The translations under genes and the position numbers were made by a program. This document shows, piece by piece, positions 4,958-50,830 of a stretch of DNA of 64,000 bases (position 1 is the stretch's first letter; every line of letters begins with the position of its first letter). Source of the DNA: Thioalkalivibrio sp. ALMg11 (lineage in GTDB: Bacteria; Pseudomonadota; Gammaproteobacteria; Ectothiorhodospirales; Ectothiorhodospiraceae); the NCBI RefSeq assembly GCF_000377905.1, contig NZ_KB898874.1, forward strand, positions 248,001-312,000, in the 5' to 3' direction. The notes under the pieces are model-generated. The model was not told the DNA's origin. It worked only from the letters and a program-made list of their open reading frames with translations, and ran no database searches.

Positions 4958-6691
4958 TCAGCGATCCAGGCCGGGATCACCTGCGACGTTCTTCAGCTTC
5001 GGCAGGTAGGGCTTGCCGGGGCTGATGGTGTCGCGATCGCGCAGATAGCTGGCGACGACATCCCACACCGGATCGGTGTCCAGCGGTTCGTGCACATTGG
5101 CCCAGCCGGCCACCACGTATTTCTTGTCCGGGTCCAGCGCCTTGCCGTTGATGTGCATGTCGCTGATACGACTGCCCATCGATTCGTGCGGGTCGATGCT
5201 GTACTCGATGCCGGAGGTCCGCACCATGTCCCCGCCGCGGTGATGGTAGGGGTTGGCGTTGAAGATCGAGTTGGCCACGTCTTCCAGGGCGTTCTTCAGC
5301 TGCGAACCTGTCATTTCATTGCGCTGCGTCTCCGAGTAGGTGGTCGCGGTCTGCGTCATCAACTCCTCGAAGGTGATGGGCGAACCCGGCAGCACGCTCA
5401 CGCCCCAGCGGAAGCCAGGCGACAGGGCCACCTCGGCATCCATCTCCTTGATCATCGCGTCCATGATGACCTCGTCGAAGGTGCCGTTGAAGTTGCCGCG
5501 GCGGTAGAGAACACCGTCGGTTACGGCCAGTTCTTCGTTCAGCTTGTCCTCATAGGGCTCGCGCACCGTGCGGATGTGCTCCTCCATCTCGGCATCCGCC
5601 TCGAGCAGGTTGGAGAACACCGGCAGCAGGGTGAACTTGTAGTCGCGGATACCGTTGTCGGTCACGTCCAGGTCCATCACGCCAACGAACTTGCCATTGG
5701 AACCGGCATTGGTGACCAGCGTGGTCTCGCCGCCGGCATTCTCGATCTCCATCGCGCCCGGTACCGCGTCATGCGTATGACCGCCCATGATGATGTCCAC
5801 GTCGCGCAGACGGCGGGCCATCTCCATGTCGGTGACCATGCCGTTGTGCGACAGGATCGCTACGACCTTGGCGCCCTTCCCGCGGCACTCGTCGATCATG
5901 CGCTGCATGTGCTCGTCGCGGATGCCGAAGCTCCAATCCGGGATCTTGTAGTCCGGGTTCGCAACCGTGGTGTAGGGGAAGGCCTGCCCGATGACGGCGA
6001 CCGCCACACCGTTCATCTCGCGAATGGTATAGGGGTCGAACACCGGGTCGCCCCAGTCGCGATCCTCGACGTTCTGCGCGAGGAAATCGATGTTGTTGGG
6101 CTTGAAGTCGTTTTCGATGATCTCCATCACCCGGTCGTCGCCGAAGGTGAACTCCCAGTGGCCGGTCATGATGTCCACGCCCAGCAGCTTCTGCGCATCG
6201 ACCATGTCCTGCCCGTTCGTCCACAGCGACGTGGCGGAGCCCTGCCAGGTATCACCACCATCCAGCAGCAGCGAATTCGGGCGCTCGGCGCGCAACTTCT
6301 GGATCAACGTGGACAGATGGGAGAAGCCACCCAGGCGCCCGTATTTCTCGGCCGCGTACTTGAAGTCCATATGGGTAACCGCGTGCGCCAGCGGCGTGCC
6401 CGGTTTGAGGTCGAAATATTCGAGCATGTCTTTCCCGGCGAGCACCGGCGGCTTGCCCTGCATGTCGCCCACGCCGATGTTCACGTCCGGCTCGCGGAAA
6501 TACACCGGCTTCAGCTGCGCGTGGCAGTCGGTGTAGTGCAGCAGCGACACGTTGCCGAACTTCGGCAGGTCGTACATGTTCCCGTCGGCCGGCTTCCAGG
6601 ATCCCTTCTCGCCTGCCCAGGCATTCATCGAGAACCCGGCGGCACTGGCCGCGACCATGGCTTCGAGAAACTCTCTCCGCGTAAGACTCAT
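4958..6691 (-). CDS. soxB: Thiosulfohydrolase SoxB
   Basis: SoxB hydrolyses the terminal sulfonate of the cysteine-bound intermediate on SoxYZ, releasing sulfate in periplasmic thiosulfate oxidation. The 577-residue protein starts with a Tat signal (SLTRREFLEAMVAASAAG), as usual for SoxB folded before export. The 5'-nucleotidase-type metallophosphatase core carries ligand motifs LLHYTDCHAQL (residues 50-60), LLDGGDTWQGS, TGHWEF, SHNG and MGGHTHD; the C-terminal nucleotidase-like domain begins near residue 350. The two-manganese site therefore looks intact. ATG 6691 is chosen over 6697 because AAGGAG lies 7 bases upstream. No other sox gene is nearby, so it is a stand-alone locus. Confidence 0.96.
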   Translation of the reverse strand: MSLTRREFLEAMVAASAAGFSMNAWAGEKGSWKPADGNMYDLPKFGNVSLLHYTDCHAQLKPVYFREPDVNIGVGDMQGKPPVLAGKDMLEYFDLKPGTPLAHAVTHMDFKYAAEKYGRLGGFSHLSTLIQKLRAERPNSLLLDGGDTWQGSATSLWTNGQDMVDAQKLLGVDIMTGHWEFTFGDDRVMEIIENDFKPNNIDFLAQNVEDRDWGDPVFDPYTIREMNGVAVAVIGQAFPYTTVANPDYKIPDWSFGIRDEHMQRMIDECRGKGAKVVAILSHNGMVTDMEMARRLRDVDIIMGGHTHDAVPGAMEIENAGGETTLVTNAGSNGKFVGVMDLDVTDNGIRDYKFTLLPVFSNLLEADAEMEEHIRTVREPYEDKLNEELAVTDGVLYRRGNFNGTFDEVIMDAMIKEMDAEVALSPGFRWGVSVLPGSPITFEELMTQTATTYSETQRNEMTGSQLKNALEDVANSIFNANPYHHRGGDMVRTSGIEYSIDPHESMGSRISDMHINGKALDPDKKYVVAGWANVHEPLDTDPVWDVVASYLRDRDTISPGKPYLPKLKNVAGDPGLDR

Positions 6692-6924
6692 GTGCATCTC
6701 CTTCGTGGCTTTATCGTGTTTTCAGGGCGCCCGGAGGCTTACCTCACCTAGCTCACGACGCACCACGGCGTGAAATGTTCCGCACAGGACCCGGCATCAA
6801 GACGCCCTACAACGGTATGTTCGGAAGCATTCAAAGGAGATCAAGAATGAATGGGGGCAGTTCCTGAGCGTTGGCGAATTTCTCCCCCGTTGAGGAAAAG
6901 ATCACATTTCGCCCGAAAAAGACA

Positions 6925-6955
6925 CAAAAAAGCCTGCTATCCGGAGATAGCAGGC
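6925..6955 (-). terminator. Strong rho-independent terminator
   Basis: GCCTGCTATC (6932-6941), loop CGGA and GATAGCAGGC (6946-6955) form a perfect ten-pair stem. On the minus strand it is followed by seven T residues (A run 6925-6931). It ends the predicted small RNA and any read-through from fba. Confidence 0.9.
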
Positions 6956-7046
6956 CAAGACGCGACATACACCGTCGGAAGCAACCGGCCCGCACCGCAC
7001 GCTGGGGGGTCGTGCATCCCTTGCTGGGCCGAGGATCGAATCCGAC
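6925..7046 (-). ncRNA. Predicted FNR-activated small RNA (about 121 nt)
   Basis: Between fba and soxB a promoter-like unit (FNR box 7081-7094, -10 TAGCCT 7058-7053) points left and is followed about 90 nt later by a strong terminator, with no gene between. The predicted RNA begins near G7046. CGTCGGA at 7047-7041 can pair with TCCGACG at 6979-6973, closing a long-range stem ahead of the terminator hairpin. A 24-codon frame starts at ATG 7017, but its AAGGG is only one base from the ATG, so translation is doubtful. Layout recalls FnrS (E. coli) and the Anr-dependent PhrS (Pseudomonas), without recognisable sequence similarity. Purely predicted. Confidence 0.5.
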
Positions 7047-7052
7047 GATCTC

Positions 7053-7094
7053 AGGCTAGTCAGCCTTCCGGCGGTCTTTCTTGATCCAGATCAA
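7053..7094 (-). promoter_or_regulatory. Predicted class II FNR/Anr promoter
   Basis: TTGATCCAGATCAA at 7081-7094 matches all ten defined bases of the FNR consensus TTGAT-N4-ATCAA. On the minus strand the -10-like TAGCCT (7058-7053) sits so that a start at 7046 places the box centre at -41.5, the standard class II position. No coding start follows before the terminator at 6955. Confidence 0.65.
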
Positions 7095-7149
7095 TAGATA
7101 CGGCAATCCGTTTGCCGCGATTGCACACCGCGGCTGGTAGGCGGCGAAC

Positions 7150-8154
7150 TCAGGCCCCGTACTTCCCCTGGGCCGCCAGCCCGTTGTCGCGCGCGCGTTC
7201 GAAGACGGTCTGCTGGGCCTTTTCGAAATTGGCGGCCGGATCCTTGCCCCAAAGCTCCATCGCCGCCTGCTGCATGCCGCGGCCATAGGAGAACGAGAGC
7301 GGCCACGGGGTCCCGCCGATCTGGTTCATGGCGTCCAGGTGGTTGGTGGCATCGGCGTCGCTCTGCCCGCCCGAGAGGAACACCACCCCCGGCAGGATCG
7401 CCGGCACGGCGGATTCCAGGCAGCGCAGCGTCGCATGGGCGACGTCGTCCACAGTCGCTTGTTCCGGGCAGTCCTTGCCCGGGAGCACCATGCTGGCCTT
7501 GAGGATCGTGCCCTCGAGCAGCACGTGATGCTCGTACAGCGCCCGAAACACGGCCCTCTGAGTCGCCTCGGTCACGCCGTAGCAGGTCTCGATGTCGTGG
7601 TCGCCGTCGATCAGGATCTCTGGCTCTACGATCGGCACGATCCCGTGCTCCTGGCACAGCGCGGCATACCGCGCCAGGGCGTGCGCATTCGACTCGATGC
7701 AGGTATCGGTGGGCATGGTCTCGCCAATGGTGATCACCGCGCGCCACTTGGCGAAGCGGGCCCCCATGCTGGCGTACTCCTCGAGCCGCTCGCGCAGCCC
7801 GTCCAGGCCCTCGGTCACCTTCTCGCCGGGGAAGCCGGCCAGATCCTTCGCGCCCGTATCGACCTTGATACCGGGCAGGATGCCGGCCTCGTTCATCACA
7901 TCCACAAAGGGCTTGCCGTCGCGGGTCGACTGGCGAAGCGTCTCGTCGTACAGGATCGCGCCCGAGATGTATTCCTTCAGCTTCGGCGTGGTCAGCAACA
8001 ACTCGCGGTACGTGCGGCGGTTCTCCTCGGTGTTCTCGACACCGACCGCGCCCAGGCGCTTGCCGATCGTCCCGGTGGATTCATCAATGGCGATGATGCC
8101 CTTGCCGGGCTCCACCATCGCTTCGGCCGTCTCTACCAACTGATCGATCTTCAT
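7150..8154 (-). CDS. fba: Class I fructose-bisphosphate aldolase
   Basis: The 334-residue protein belongs to the vertebrate/plant-type class I aldolases, which split fructose-1,6-bisphosphate through a Schiff base and need no metal. It works in the Calvin-Benson cycle and gluconeogenesis in an autotroph. Family blocks are GKGIIAIDESTGTIGKRL (residues 17-34), ARFAKWRAVI near 130 with the catalytic Lys of KWR, IVPIVEPEIL near 172-181, the Schiff-base Lys in GTILKASMVLPG near 215, and GVVFLSGGQSD near 260. Start ATG 8154 has AAGGAG 6 bases upstream; a longer frame to 8235 lacks one. It is separated by about 70 bases from the next gene upstream on the same strand. Confidence 0.95.
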   Translation of the reverse strand: MKIDQLVETAEAMVEPGKGIIAIDESTGTIGKRLGAVGVENTEENRRTYRELLLTTPKLKEYISGAILYDETLRQSTRDGKPFVDVMNEAGILPGIKVDTGAKDLAGFPGEKVTEGLDGLRERLEEYASMGARFAKWRAVITIGETMPTDTCIESNAHALARYAALCQEHGIVPIVEPEILIDGDHDIETCYGVTEATQRAVFRALYEHHVLLEGTILKASMVLPGKDCPEQATVDDVAHATLRCLESAVPAILPGVVFLSGGQSDADATNHLDAMNQIGGTPWPLSFSYGRGMQQAAMELWGKDPAANFEKAQQTVFERARDNGLAAQGKYGA

Positions 8155-36056: not shown

Positions 36057-36105
36057 ATGATCTGCATCAACAACCGCTAATACCGGTGGCGGGATAGTGC
36101 CTGTG
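36057..36105 (+). promoter_or_regulatory. Predicted class II FNR promoter of ompW
   Basis: ATGATCTGCATCAA (36057-36070) matches nine of ten defined bases of the FNR consensus. GATAGT at 36093-36098 stands as a -10 such that a start at about 36105 puts the box centre at -41.5. The resulting leader is about 27 nt with CGGAGA before the ATG. FNR control of ompW is known in E. coli. Confidence 0.6.
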
Positions 36106-36821: not shown

Positions 36822-37244
36822 CTAACCGCCGACGTCTCCGACGAGGCCGAGGACCCGCGCAATGCGGTCCTCGGCCTCTTGCGTTTCCAGCCCGCGCGAT
36901 TTTGGGGCACCCCACACGGGGCCGGGCCACGCCGGGTCCCCCTCGCGGCGCGCTACATGATGCAGGTGCAGCTGCTCCACGATATTGCCAAGCTTGGCCA
37001 CGTTCAGCGCCTTCGGAGCGAAGGCCTGCTCCATCGCCCGCGCCAGTGCACCGGACTCGCGAGCCAGCTGGATGGCATCCTCGGGGGCCAGTTGATGCAG
37101 TTCGCGCACATCGGCGCGACGCGGCACCAGGATGAACCAGGGATAGTCGTGATGATCCATCAACCGCAGCCGCGATAGCGGCCACTCGGCCGCCGCCCAG
37201 GTATCTGCCTCGAGGCGTGGATCCAGCAGAAATTCATTCGTCAT
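36822..37244 (-). CDS. HIT-family hydrolase
   Basis: This 140-residue protein has the histidine-triad signature region NIVEQLHLHHVARREGDPAW near residues 90-109, with the catalytic His in the HLHH run, and FILVPRRADVRELHQL near 37-52. HIT proteins cleave or transfer nucleotide monophosphates. AGGAG precedes ATG 37244, which overlaps the end of the upstream M1 peptidase gene by 11 bases, so translation is coupled. The gene is convergent with ompW. Confidence 0.9.
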   Translation of the reverse strand: MTNEFLLDPRLEADTWAAAEWPLSRLRLMDHHDYPWFILVPRRADVRELHQLAPEDAIQLARESGALARAMEQAFAPKALNVAKLGNIVEQLHLHHVARREGDPAWPGPVWGAPKSRGLETQEAEDRIARVLGLVGDVGG

Positions 37245-39198
37245 CGGCAAGCTCCTGCCATATTCCCGGCTGGGCCCAAAGGCCGGTCTGCCACGCGCCC
37301 TTCGCGCCGGGCAACAGGTAACTGTAGTGCGATCGATGCCGCAGTGCGGCCGCGGCCTCGCGTCGTGCATCCGCGTCCGCGCCACTGACGACGATCAACC
37401 GGGTATCCGGTACGGCCCAGGCCCGCGCACCCGGACCCATTTCGCCTGCGTTCGCCAGTACGGCCGGGTCGTTCGGCAGATCACGTCTCTCCAGCCAGAC
37501 CGCCACAGAGGAATGCGAGCCCAGCACGATCCGCGTGCCTTCTGCATCGTCCGCGGAACCCGGCACCCGACCCAGCCAGGGGGCGACCTCGGAGGCCTCG
37601 GCGTCGTCCAGCGCCACAACCCGGGCTTCCGGGTCCAGGGCACCCTGACGCAGGATGGCGGGCGATTCGTCCGCTGCCAGATGGCGGAACATTCGCCAGT
37701 CGGGGTCGATGGCAATGGCCAGGGGTCGGCTGGAGGTCTCCAGCGAAATCCCCTTCTCTACCTCATTCAGCTCGACCCAATGCGTCTCGCGGCCGTTCTC
37801 GGTTTCCAGCTCCAGCGGGACATACAGCTCCCAAGGGGCCTGCTCGTCGCGTTGTTGCAGCCGGCCCTGTACTCGCCAACCGTCTCCCCGCGCCCCGCGG
37901 TGCAGTTCCGTCAGTTCCAGCTCAGGCGCACCGGCACGCTCTACCCACTGGGCAAAGAACGGCCGCAGGTCTTCGTCCGTCACGTCGTCGAATGCCCCGA
38001 TCACGGCATCCCAGTCCGCCTCAACAAAGCGCCATTCGTCGTAGAGGGCGCGCGCGCCTGTCAGGAATACCTCGCGGCCGATCCGGTCCTCCAGCATCCG
38101 CCACAACATCGCGCCGCGGTGGTAACCGGCGATACGGGCCGCCCCGGAATTGCCGCCGCGGAAGCTCCCGTGCGCGCGATCTTCCCCGGCCGGCAAGGCC
38201 GCGTAGTCCCGCAGCCACTGGCCCCGTTCCTCCCGCCCTTCGCCGCGTTCGCGCTTGAACTGATAGTCGGCCATGTAGGTCGTCAGACCCTCCGACCAGT
38301 TGCCGCCCGAATAGTCCACGTACACCCCGGTTCCCCACCAGGCGTGCAGGACCTCGTGGCCCAGCGAGGTATACGGAATAAACGGCAGCGGAATCACCCG
38401 CTCCCCCAACAGCGTGAAGCCGGAGAACGCCAGCCCCACGGGCTGCGGACTCGCCGCGATCGTGAAGGTCGCAAGCGGGTACGGCCCGATCTCGTCATTG
38501 AAGCGCTGCAGGTATTTGGCCGCCTGCTCGCGATAGGTCTCCCCGAATCGCTGTTCCAGGCCGGCTGGGAACAAGGTGCGCACCTCCACCTCGCCGACCC
38601 TCTGCTCGGCCGATTCCCAGGGGCCGGTGGCCACTGCCAGGGCGCGACCGGCCGGGTGCTCGAACGTGGCCTGGTATTCGTCACCGCGTCGCTCCTCGGC
38701 CACTCGCGACCCGGAAGTCACGCCGAGATGGCCACCGAGACTCTTCAACTCGATGCGTACTGCATGGGGCTCGGCGTCCGGGCGGCGCGGATACCAGTCG
38801 GCCCCTGGCGGCAGATACCCGCCGTCCGGGCCCAGATACCCGCTCCCCGGACGCGCCTCGGCGGGCAGCGGAAGACGCGCGCCATAGCGAATCGCCAAAG
38901 GCCCCGCATCCGCTGCCGGGTCGCGCGCCAGTTCCAGCCAGCCATCCCCGCTGCGGTAGAACTCCACCGCTTGGCCGCCCAGGGTAACGGCATCCACGGC
39001 GATACCCGGATCGAGCCGAAACCGCCGCAGAGAGGCTGGATCGAGCTGCCCCGGGTCCACCTCGAAACGCCCCTCCAGCCGTGACGTCCCAGGGTCCAGT
39101 TCAACCTCCAGGGTGATGCCCTCGAAGGTCTCGCTGGCCAGCGCAACGCCACCGGCCACCCACAAGACGGCGCTGCACAGCAACACACCCAGGCGCAT
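37234..39198 (-). CDS. Secreted M1-type (gluzincin) metallopeptidase
   Basis: This 654-residue protein has an N-terminal signal peptide (MRLGVLLCSAVLWVAGGVAL) and an M1-like catalytic region: SLGHEVLHAWWGTGVY near residues 288-303 gives HExxH, and NWSEGLTTYMADY near 308-320 gives the third zinc ligand Glu, at 17 intervening residues rather than the usual 18. The exopeptidase motif GxMEN is not evident, so substrate choice may differ from aminopeptidase N. The last 200 residues carry no recognisable domain. It lies between a ChaN-like gene (5-base gap) and the HIT gene (overlap), forming one operon. Probably periplasmic. Confidence 0.82.
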   Translation of the reverse strand: MRLGVLLCSAVLWVAGGVALASETFEGITLEVELDPGTSRLEGRFEVDPGQLDPASLRRFRLDPGIAVDAVTLGGQAVEFYRSGDGWLELARDPAADAGPLAIRYGARLPLPAEARPGSGYLGPDGGYLPPGADWYPRRPDAEPHAVRIELKSLGGHLGVTSGSRVAEERRGDEYQATFEHPAGRALAVATGPWESAEQRVGEVEVRTLFPAGLEQRFGETYREQAAKYLQRFNDEIGPYPLATFTIAASPQPVGLAFSGFTLLGERVIPLPFIPYTSLGHEVLHAWWGTGVYVDYSGGNWSEGLTTYMADYQFKRERGEGREERGQWLRDYAALPAGEDRAHGSFRGGNSGAARIAGYHRGAMLWRMLEDRIGREVFLTGARALYDEWRFVEADWDAVIGAFDDVTDEDLRPFFAQWVERAGAPELELTELHRGARGDGWRVQGRLQQRDEQAPWELYVPLELETENGRETHWVELNEVEKGISLETSSRPLAIAIDPDWRMFRHLAADESPAILRQGALDPEARVVALDDAEASEVAPWLGRVPGSADDAEGTRIVLGSHSSVAVWLERRDLPNDPAVLANAGEMGPGARAWAVPDTRLIVVSGADADARREAAAALRHRSHYSYLLPGAKGAWQTGLWAQPGIWQELADDE

Positions 39199-50053: not shown

Positions 50054-50830
50054 TCAGCGGTCCGGGAGGTATCGCGCCGGGTCTACCGGCGTCCCGTCTA
50101 CCCGGATCTCGAAGTGCAACATCGGGCGCTCTGCCCCCGATGACCCCAGACGCGCGATGGTGTCGCCTGCCTGCACCTGGTCACCCTCACTCACCAGCAA
50201 TTCATCGTTGTGCCCGTAGGCACTAAGGAACCGCGCGTCGTGCTTGAGGATGATCAATCGACCATACCCCACCAGTCCGCCACCTGCATAGACCACTTCG
50301 CCGGCCCGCGTTGCCCGAACGTGATCCCCCCGCTCGCCGCCGATCGCAAGCCCCCGCCGCGTGCCGCTGCTGGAGAATCCGCGCAGCACCTCGCCAGCCG
50401 CCGGCCATTGCCAGCCACCCGGATCGGAAGGCGGCGGACTCGAAGTCGACGAGCTTGAGGCGGACCCGGACGAGGCCCCGCCCCCGGCACTGCTGTCGCG
50501 GCCAGAAGCGCCCGAGGATGGCTGCCGCGTGCTCGGCGGCGAGGAGGCCTGCGGCGCGCTGGGCGACGACGAGCGCGCCGCACCTCGCAGCCGCAGGCGC
50601 TGACCGGGATGGATTACATAAGGGGCACCGATGGCATTGCGCCGGGCCAGATCGCGCCATTCCACGCCGTAGCGCTGGGCAATGCGGTACAGCGTCTCGT
50701 TGCGCTGCACCACGTGGGTATCCGGCATCGAGGCCCCGCTGGGCGCACGCGCCGCACAACCGGCCAGGACATTCGCAACCAGGACCAGCACCAGCGCGGC
50801 CAGCAATCCCTGAACCATGCGCCGGCGCAT
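50054..50830 (-). CDS. nlpD: NlpD: LysM/LytM-domain lipoprotein, amidase activator
   Basis: This 258-residue lipoprotein has a signal ending ANVLAGC (acylated Cys25), a LysM domain ([17 protein letters not shown], residues 39-55 on), a Ser/Gly/Pro-rich linker (85-140) and a C-terminal M23 domain. In that domain [12 protein letters not shown] stands where active peptidases have the HxxxD zinc ligands, while YGHNDELLV and MLHFEIR remain. It is therefore a degenerate activator of cell-wall amidases such as AmiC rather than a peptidase. It precedes rpoS by 23 bases. Confidence 0.93.

Follow-up and report, generated by a model that had tools for sequence, protein, structure and literature searches.

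The spacer that separates fba from soxB in this Thioalkalivibrio genome very probably holds a genuine gene under the control of FNR, and as far as sequence can tell, that gene is likely to be a stand-alone unit for an FNR-induced, trans-acting, base-pairing small RNA (sRNA) of ~121 nt. The original prediction, made on the 64-kb stretch of DNA analysed here (the window, to which coordinates refer unless another genome or locus is named), had proposed an FNR-activated sRNA standing alone at this place, a reading supported by: 1) an FNR box in the class II position; 2) a gene for FNR in the same genome; 3) a terminator belonging to the unit itself; 4) the lack of a conserved open reading frame (ORF). 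The predicted unit and its neighbours, in the direction of transcription, are as follows.

7150..8154, minus strand: fba, class I fructose-bisphosphate aldolase (NF033379, 518.6 bits), the upstream neighbour, outside the unit
7094-7081, minus strand: FNR box TTGATCTGGATCAA, a perfect TTGAT-N4-ATCAA centred at 7087.5
7058-7053, minus strand: -10 element TAGCCT, 22 nt past the FNR box
6926..7046, minus strand: predicted sRNA of ~121 nt, with its 3' end in a T run
6974..7046, minus strand: 5' stem-loop of 73 nt, with closing stem GUCGGA (7046-7041) paired to UCCGAC (6979-6974)
6973-6953, minus strand: invariant core of 21 nt, GGUGUAUGUCGCGUCUUGGCC (DNA: GGTGTATGTCGCGTCTTGGCC), the presumed pairing region (seed)
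6956-6931, minus strand: Rho-independent terminator, an 11-pair stem capped by a 4-nt loop, with the T run at 6930-6926
4958..6697, minus strand: soxB, thiosulfohydrolase (TIGR04486, 810.1 bits), the downstream neighbour

The box, perfect as originally described, is the only TTGAT-N4-ATCAA in the window; the 3.04-Mb genome has six in all and none of the reversed control pattern. It is from the geometry of a box centre at -41.5, relative to the -10 element, that we infer +1 at 7046. fba runs in the same direction and has its stop codon ~55 nt upstream of the box, and the terminator ends 228 nt ahead of the soxB start. Two structural details of the original prediction stand in amended form: the terminator exists, with 11 pairs around a 4-nt loop rather than ten pairs, and the proposed pairing of CGTCGGA with TCCGACG is realised as the six pairs of GUCGGA with UCCGAC, as a seventh would use the base at -1. 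The last letters of the core form the foot of the terminator, and its first 17 nt lie outside both main stems. Two results count against the unit: the terminator on its own is not above chance (1 found against 1.2 expected in 2 kb), and a sigma-70 scan of 6000-8000 returned no promoter, which could be because a class II FNR promoter needs no -35 box.

Comparison across genomes carries the case for the gene. Of 40 genomes given a blastn-type search, 10 hold the region (the one with the window is among them) and all 10 belong to one genus; a covariance model built from those 10 sequences and run on 47 genomes of the family gave 13 strong matches (E < 1e-20) and two intermediate ones (5e-7), with a match of any quality at E ≤ 1 in 27 of the 47. 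When the genomes were scanned for an FNR box followed after 20-50 nt by TAGNCTG, five free positions and a G, the pattern was present in 13 of 47, the same 13 as those with strong matches, and at one additional, unrelated place in G004. All 13 strong-match units lie between fba and soxB and keep a perfect TTGAT-N4-ATCAA, TAGNCT, the core and the terminator; the gap from box to -10 is 22 nt in every one, so that the hexamer, predicted as set for a box centre at -41.5, has identical spacing throughout. The retention of all five features (box, gap, TAGNCT, core, terminator) in each of the 13 spacers is the decisive evidence that the gene is real.

How conservation is distributed within the spacer points the same way. 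Mean pairwise identity among the 13 aligned spacers is 0.312 from the fba stop to the box, 0.952 in the FNR box, 0.441 in the gap, 0.906 in the -10 element, 0.506 over the six bases beyond it, 0.591 in the 5' stem-loop, 1.000 in the core, 0.739 in the rest of the terminator and 0.468 from there to soxB. Coding DNA of fba (0.809) and soxB (0.804) is thus less conserved than the core, and the functional parts are therefore islands within a drifting spacer. All 21 columns of the core are invariant in the 13 orthologues, and a single base varies once two diverged copies are added to make 15. These copies, in G006 and G012, also lie upstream of soxB, with a tRNA-Ser gene on the opposite strand replacing fba; they keep TTGATCTGCATCAC (the FNR box with one mismatch), the core and a terminator whose sequence differs, and their -10 reads TACAGT or TACACT, one base nearer the box. 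The unit and the divergent tRNA-Ser (GGA) stand side by side at 1501-1610 and 1779-1869 of locus L024 and at 1501-1617 and 1275-1365 of locus L025. With a tRNA gene in the place of fba in these two relatives, either fba or the soxB-sRNA block has moved.

The diverged copies bear directly on the simplest competing account, by which the element is merely the 3' untranslated region and terminator of fba, or an RNA processed from it, and the FNR box is incidental. Such an account would draw on the position of the fba stop, a short distance upstream and in the same orientation, and on a terminator that would also halt read-through from fba. It sits poorly, however, with a box and -10 far better conserved than the DNA around them, and with two genomes that retain box, -10, core and terminator beside a tRNA gene. 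As the unit is kept without fba upstream, it is independent of fba read-through and has a promoter of its own; we regard the 3'-untranslated-region account as quite improbable.

The sRNA family is limited to one lineage. With one base left free, the exact core is present in 15 of the 47 family genomes, which is 15 of 30 in the genus and none of 17 in other genera. At two to three mismatches it appears in G404 and G406 and as a second match in each of G401 and G403; the reversed control gives matches of this quality too. Within a 369-genome sample of the class that contains two genomes of the genus, those two alone gave matches. A core scan of genome_contigs (84,980 species, one genome each, from which the window's own record is possibly absent) returned 12 Thioalkalivibrio records, among them T. 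versutus AL 2, T. thiocyanoxidans ARh2 and T. halophilus HL17, and two records from elsewhere that were counted as chance for want of an FNR box. The 15 weak model matches (L026-L040; E 2e-4 to 0.94; second matches of G024, G010 and G012 included) were dropped: none has a TTGA-N6-TCAA box or a 10-12-nt fragment of the core, the 9-nt fragment in L038 being far from the model match, and of four inspected by eye, three have terminators unrelated to this one and the fourth, L028, has none. Scanning 15 of the 24 soxB loci fetched from non-carriers likewise revealed no core and no perfect box, with one loose box in L097.

A regulator able to read the box is encoded in the genome. A true FNR was identified (NF008365, scoring 254.9 bits with the cut-off at 228), in whose sequence CX2CX5C and ETISR can be seen by eye; alongside it are one CRP, one further HTH_Crp_2 protein over the cut-off that by eye has neither the FNR cysteines nor the helix, and a fourth HTH_Crp_2 match under the cut-off. 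Most of the other five perfect boxes lie near respiratory genes, assigned here by proximity alone: ccoN; a gene of the DmsC family, with a cbb3-type cytochrome c at a greater distance; a peroxidase of the CCP/MauG family; a cytochrome c; and a protein of 133 aa with a COX1 match below cut-off. The box beside this last small protein (G000:C9:37986-37999, L179) has a counterpart in G004 (G004:C8:24437-24450, L178) with the same following genes, and the neighbourhood is possibly a low-oxygen or NO-related gene set. Separately, an ompW-family gene in the window (PF03922; 36132-36794, plus strand) is preceded by an FNR-like box, ATGATCTGCATCAA, at 36057-36070, ~60 nt upstream of its start, and ATGATCTG(C/T)ATCAA stands upstream of ompW in all seven relatives in which the gene was found within the fetched stretches; in E. 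coli, ompW is among the established targets of FNR.

Folding and covariation favour a structured transcript. The 122-nt RNA has a folding energy of -57.1 kcal/mol, compared with -44.9 in shuffled sequences (3.4 sd better; 0 of 200 as good), its strongest stem being the terminator. Fold z-scores for seven sequences are -1.9 and -1.8 in the diverged copies, -2.2 in one of the 13 orthologues and -3.4 to -4.7 in the other four. Across the 15-sequence alignment the closing stem and terminator together have 95.2% of cells paired, compared with 88.4 in shuffles and 35-53 when the structure is slid along the alignment. Changes on both sides of a pair occur at five of the 17 stem pairs (2.8 in shuffles; reached by 18 of 500), and the covariation score of 0.333 exceeds both shuffles (0.221; 0 of 500 reach it) and slid controls (0.085-0.149); on a third measure, further pair types, the alignment does no better than shuffles (498 of 500 do as well). 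The terminator contributes four such pairs of its 11, and the closing stem (93.3% of cells paired in the 15) contributes one, changed on both sides in seven sequences. All 17 pairs hold in the 13 orthologues and every failure falls in the two diverged copies, where, on an alignment that is difficult in the terminator, three of the six pairs of the closing stem break down, as do several in the terminator, and where one copy folds differently. The inner 5' stem-loop differs between subgroups. Within the core, 13 of the 15 can form a weak mini-hairpin of three pairs (GUG/CGC, loop UAUGU), whose pairs are invariant, and UAUGU and GUCUU are largely free. Since the window sequence supplied the structure and the aligned sequences are relatives of one another, covariation here supports the structure rather than proving it.

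The transcript is also best read as non-coding. The original prediction had placed no gene within the unit; relatives were checked for a conserved ORF between box and terminator, and none of at least eight codons is common to all 15 sequences. One might propose a small-protein gene under FNR control, given that eight of the 15 (one subgroup) have within the core a GTG that starts a frame of 11 codons, and five (the other subgroup) an ATG that starts 10 codons in another frame. Yet the frame is not the same in the two subgroups, neither diverged copy has an ORF of at least eight codons, a Shine-Dalgarno sequence is absent by eye and the variable base of the core alters a residue in both frames, which leaves a small protein very improbable indeed.

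Oxygen-responsive sRNAs with which this one may be compared include FnrS of E. coli, which is similar in size and is represented in Rfam, AniS, as the meningococcal counterpart of FnrS is named, and PhrS of Pseudomonas, which responds to oxygen or nitrate. Against the 4227 families of Rfam (cmscan of 6000-8000, E ≤ 5), four matches were returned, none of them inside 6926-7046 and none near its gathering score, in keeping with the earlier view that the RNA recalls FnrS in size and control, to which layout can be added, but not in sequence. The FNR box of E. coli FnrS is centred at -41.5 (PMC3032703), the position found here, and under anaerobic conditions that sRNA represses over 30 mRNAs that the cell can spare when oxygen is absent (Durand and Storz 2010, as cited in PMC8139620); no Rfam match, to it or to any other family, falls within the present sRNA. 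Closest in layout is gonococcal FnrS, which shares a class II FNR promoter, a 5' stem-loop, an unstructured region and a Rho-independent terminator, and which gave no translational-fusion activity (PMC3032703), much as the present RNA has no conserved ORF by sequence; it differs in neighbourhood and organism, and the two were compared by description. PaiI of Pseudomonas (126 nt, controlled by NarXL) and PcrZ of Rhodobacter (FnrL, PrrA), both described in PMC8139620, share with PhrS and with the present RNA a similar physiological trigger and size class, but these three have other or additional regulators, and no Rfam match links them to the sRNA here. For Thioalkalivibrio itself, a 50-genome ncRNA survey that drew on one genome of the genus proposed structured RNA candidates that are likewise intergenic and limited to the genus (PMC11109978), although its mgtE, aceE-II, ykoW and smtA motifs sit elsewhere than the fba-soxB spacer; the main text of that survey makes no mention of fba, aldolase, nucleotidase, soxB or FNR, and its supplementary list may include the spacer. 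Our search of the open literature on Thioalkalivibrio small RNAs, FNR and soxB, and on sRNAs of sulfur oxidisers, found no report of this sRNA. As far as these searches reach, then, the RNA family is new, while its functional kind is already known.

An invariant single stretch of 14-17 nt would be the expected look of a seed serving several targets, and candidate partners for it were sought in several ways, with parts of the genomes screened; no convincing conserved target site came out of any test run. Allowing up to three mismatches, the 17-nt antisense pattern matched 231 times in the 15 carrier genomes (a count that takes in the RNA itself 15 times) and the reversed control 220 times; in G000 the figures were 17 and 12, and the 16 other sites there were inspected in context and no translation start was recognised at any. 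One recurrent site first taken as rplQ lies, by eye, at the end of a hisG-like gene. The shorter CGCGACATR was not above control (93 against 102 in G000, 94 against 98 in G004, 98 against 119 in G012), and a shared site near hfq, among the matches listed, proved to be inside the upstream gene (mutL by eye). Core pairing at 45 translation starts in the window showed no enrichment over 276 internal stretches, and 24% of 200 shuffled cores did as well there. The best-ranked of those starts, all with sites at the start codon, belong to an nlpD-like gene (50054-50830, named by eye), the gene at 37234-39198 and ompW, for which relatives were compared (three of three, five of seven and seven of seven found). 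The ompW site is not kept in the relatives, and the strong nlpD-like site is kept in the closest relative, G008, alone (0.003); none of the three genes was retained as a target.

Failure to find an mRNA partner, together with a core invariant over 21 nt and with one variable base in 15 sequences, could also suggest that the core is a protein-binding site through which the RNA works as a sponge or scaffold, with no need of base pairing. No known protein-binding motif was recognised in the core by eye, however, and Rfam has no match there; we consider protein binding unlikely, and a base-pairing sRNA remains the preferred reading.

The neighbourhood raises the question of a link to sulfur metabolism. 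All 15 carriers have soxB beside the unit and 13 have fba. Among the 32 non-carriers, 18 were searched for soxB (15 of the genus and three of other genera) and 17 gave a match, the best identities being 54-60% apart from a 71% copy in G016, compared with 78-100% over the part compared in carriers; the window soxB is thus of a type absent from most tested non-carriers. A clade of 15 Thioalkalivibrio species with a second soxB, possibly the product of one duplication or horizontal transfer, is described in PMC6382920, and because both the number and the soxB types match, the 15 carriers are taken to be that clade, with the window soxB fitting its accessory soxB. The sRNA is possibly a companion of the accessory soxB; shared synteny alone explains the association equally well.

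Pairing with the neighbouring mRNAs does little to strengthen such a tie. Against 200 shuffles, the core ranked 34 to 196 on the soxB leaders of 15 loci, 57 to 188 at the fba start (found in eight of 13 loci) and 5 to 179 at the soxB start (found in 12 of 13), where two of the 12 loci stood at 5 and six more at 11 to 35. The original suggestion that the sRNA connects oxygen to sox or carbon metabolism is accordingly not borne out by pairing, which is mostly within the shuffles for both mRNAs, and any tie to sulfur or carbon metabolism is a guess. soxB is the least negative of the candidate targets, with pairing that is weak. A related proposal would make the element a leader or local cis element of soxB, or an sRNA aimed mainly at soxB mRNA, and for this one can cite the constant presence of soxB downstream, the soxB type of the carriers, which most tested non-carriers lack, the two loci at 5 and six at 11 to 35 of 200 shuffles, and a best pairing site that falls at about +35 (+41 in the window), inside the coding region, in eight of 14 loci compared. 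That site nevertheless lies in conserved signal-peptide codons (by eye), soxB ranks 26th of 45 window gene starts for core pairing, its leaders pair within shuffles at most loci, and a strong terminator stands well ahead of its start, across a spacer of low identity. A role confined to soxB therefore has little probability, and a separate trans-acting sRNA is again the favoured interpretation.

Such an sRNA might work as follows. When oxygen falls, FNR would regain its iron-sulfur cluster, bind the box at -41.5 and recruit RNA polymerase as a class II activator, as the box geometry and the FNR protein suggest. The RNA would end at the terminator, and by analogy its U tail would probably bind Hfq, on which the sRNA probably depends; Hfq is encoded in this genome, and its gene is present in all five genomes of the genus tested. 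The exposed invariant core, the 17 nt ahead of the terminator, could then pair with several mRNAs, most likely silencing functions unneeded at low oxygen, if FnrS is a guide. Most Thioalkalivibrio strains are described as obligate aerobes (PMC6382920), so micro-oxic, rather than anaerobic, use of the sRNA is likely.

Seen more broadly, it is conceivable, if doubtful, that this oxygen-responsive sRNA, confined to its lineage, was acquired together with the second, accessory soxB or originated next to it, and that under oxygen shortage its single invariant seed retunes both sulfur oxidation and aerobic functions. It would then be another FnrS-type regulator of independent origin, here in chemolithoautotrophs. 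To our knowledge, most of the detailed work on low-oxygen sRNAs has been done in heterotrophs, E. coli, Neisseria and Pseudomonas among them. A well-conserved low-oxygen sRNA with a seed already in place in sulfur-oxidising autotrophs would suggest that the circuit of FNR plus sRNA has re-arisen from unrelated sequence, and it would offer a handle on how the sulfur oxidisers of soda lakes, which also serve in biogas desulfurisation, respond to oxygen limitation.
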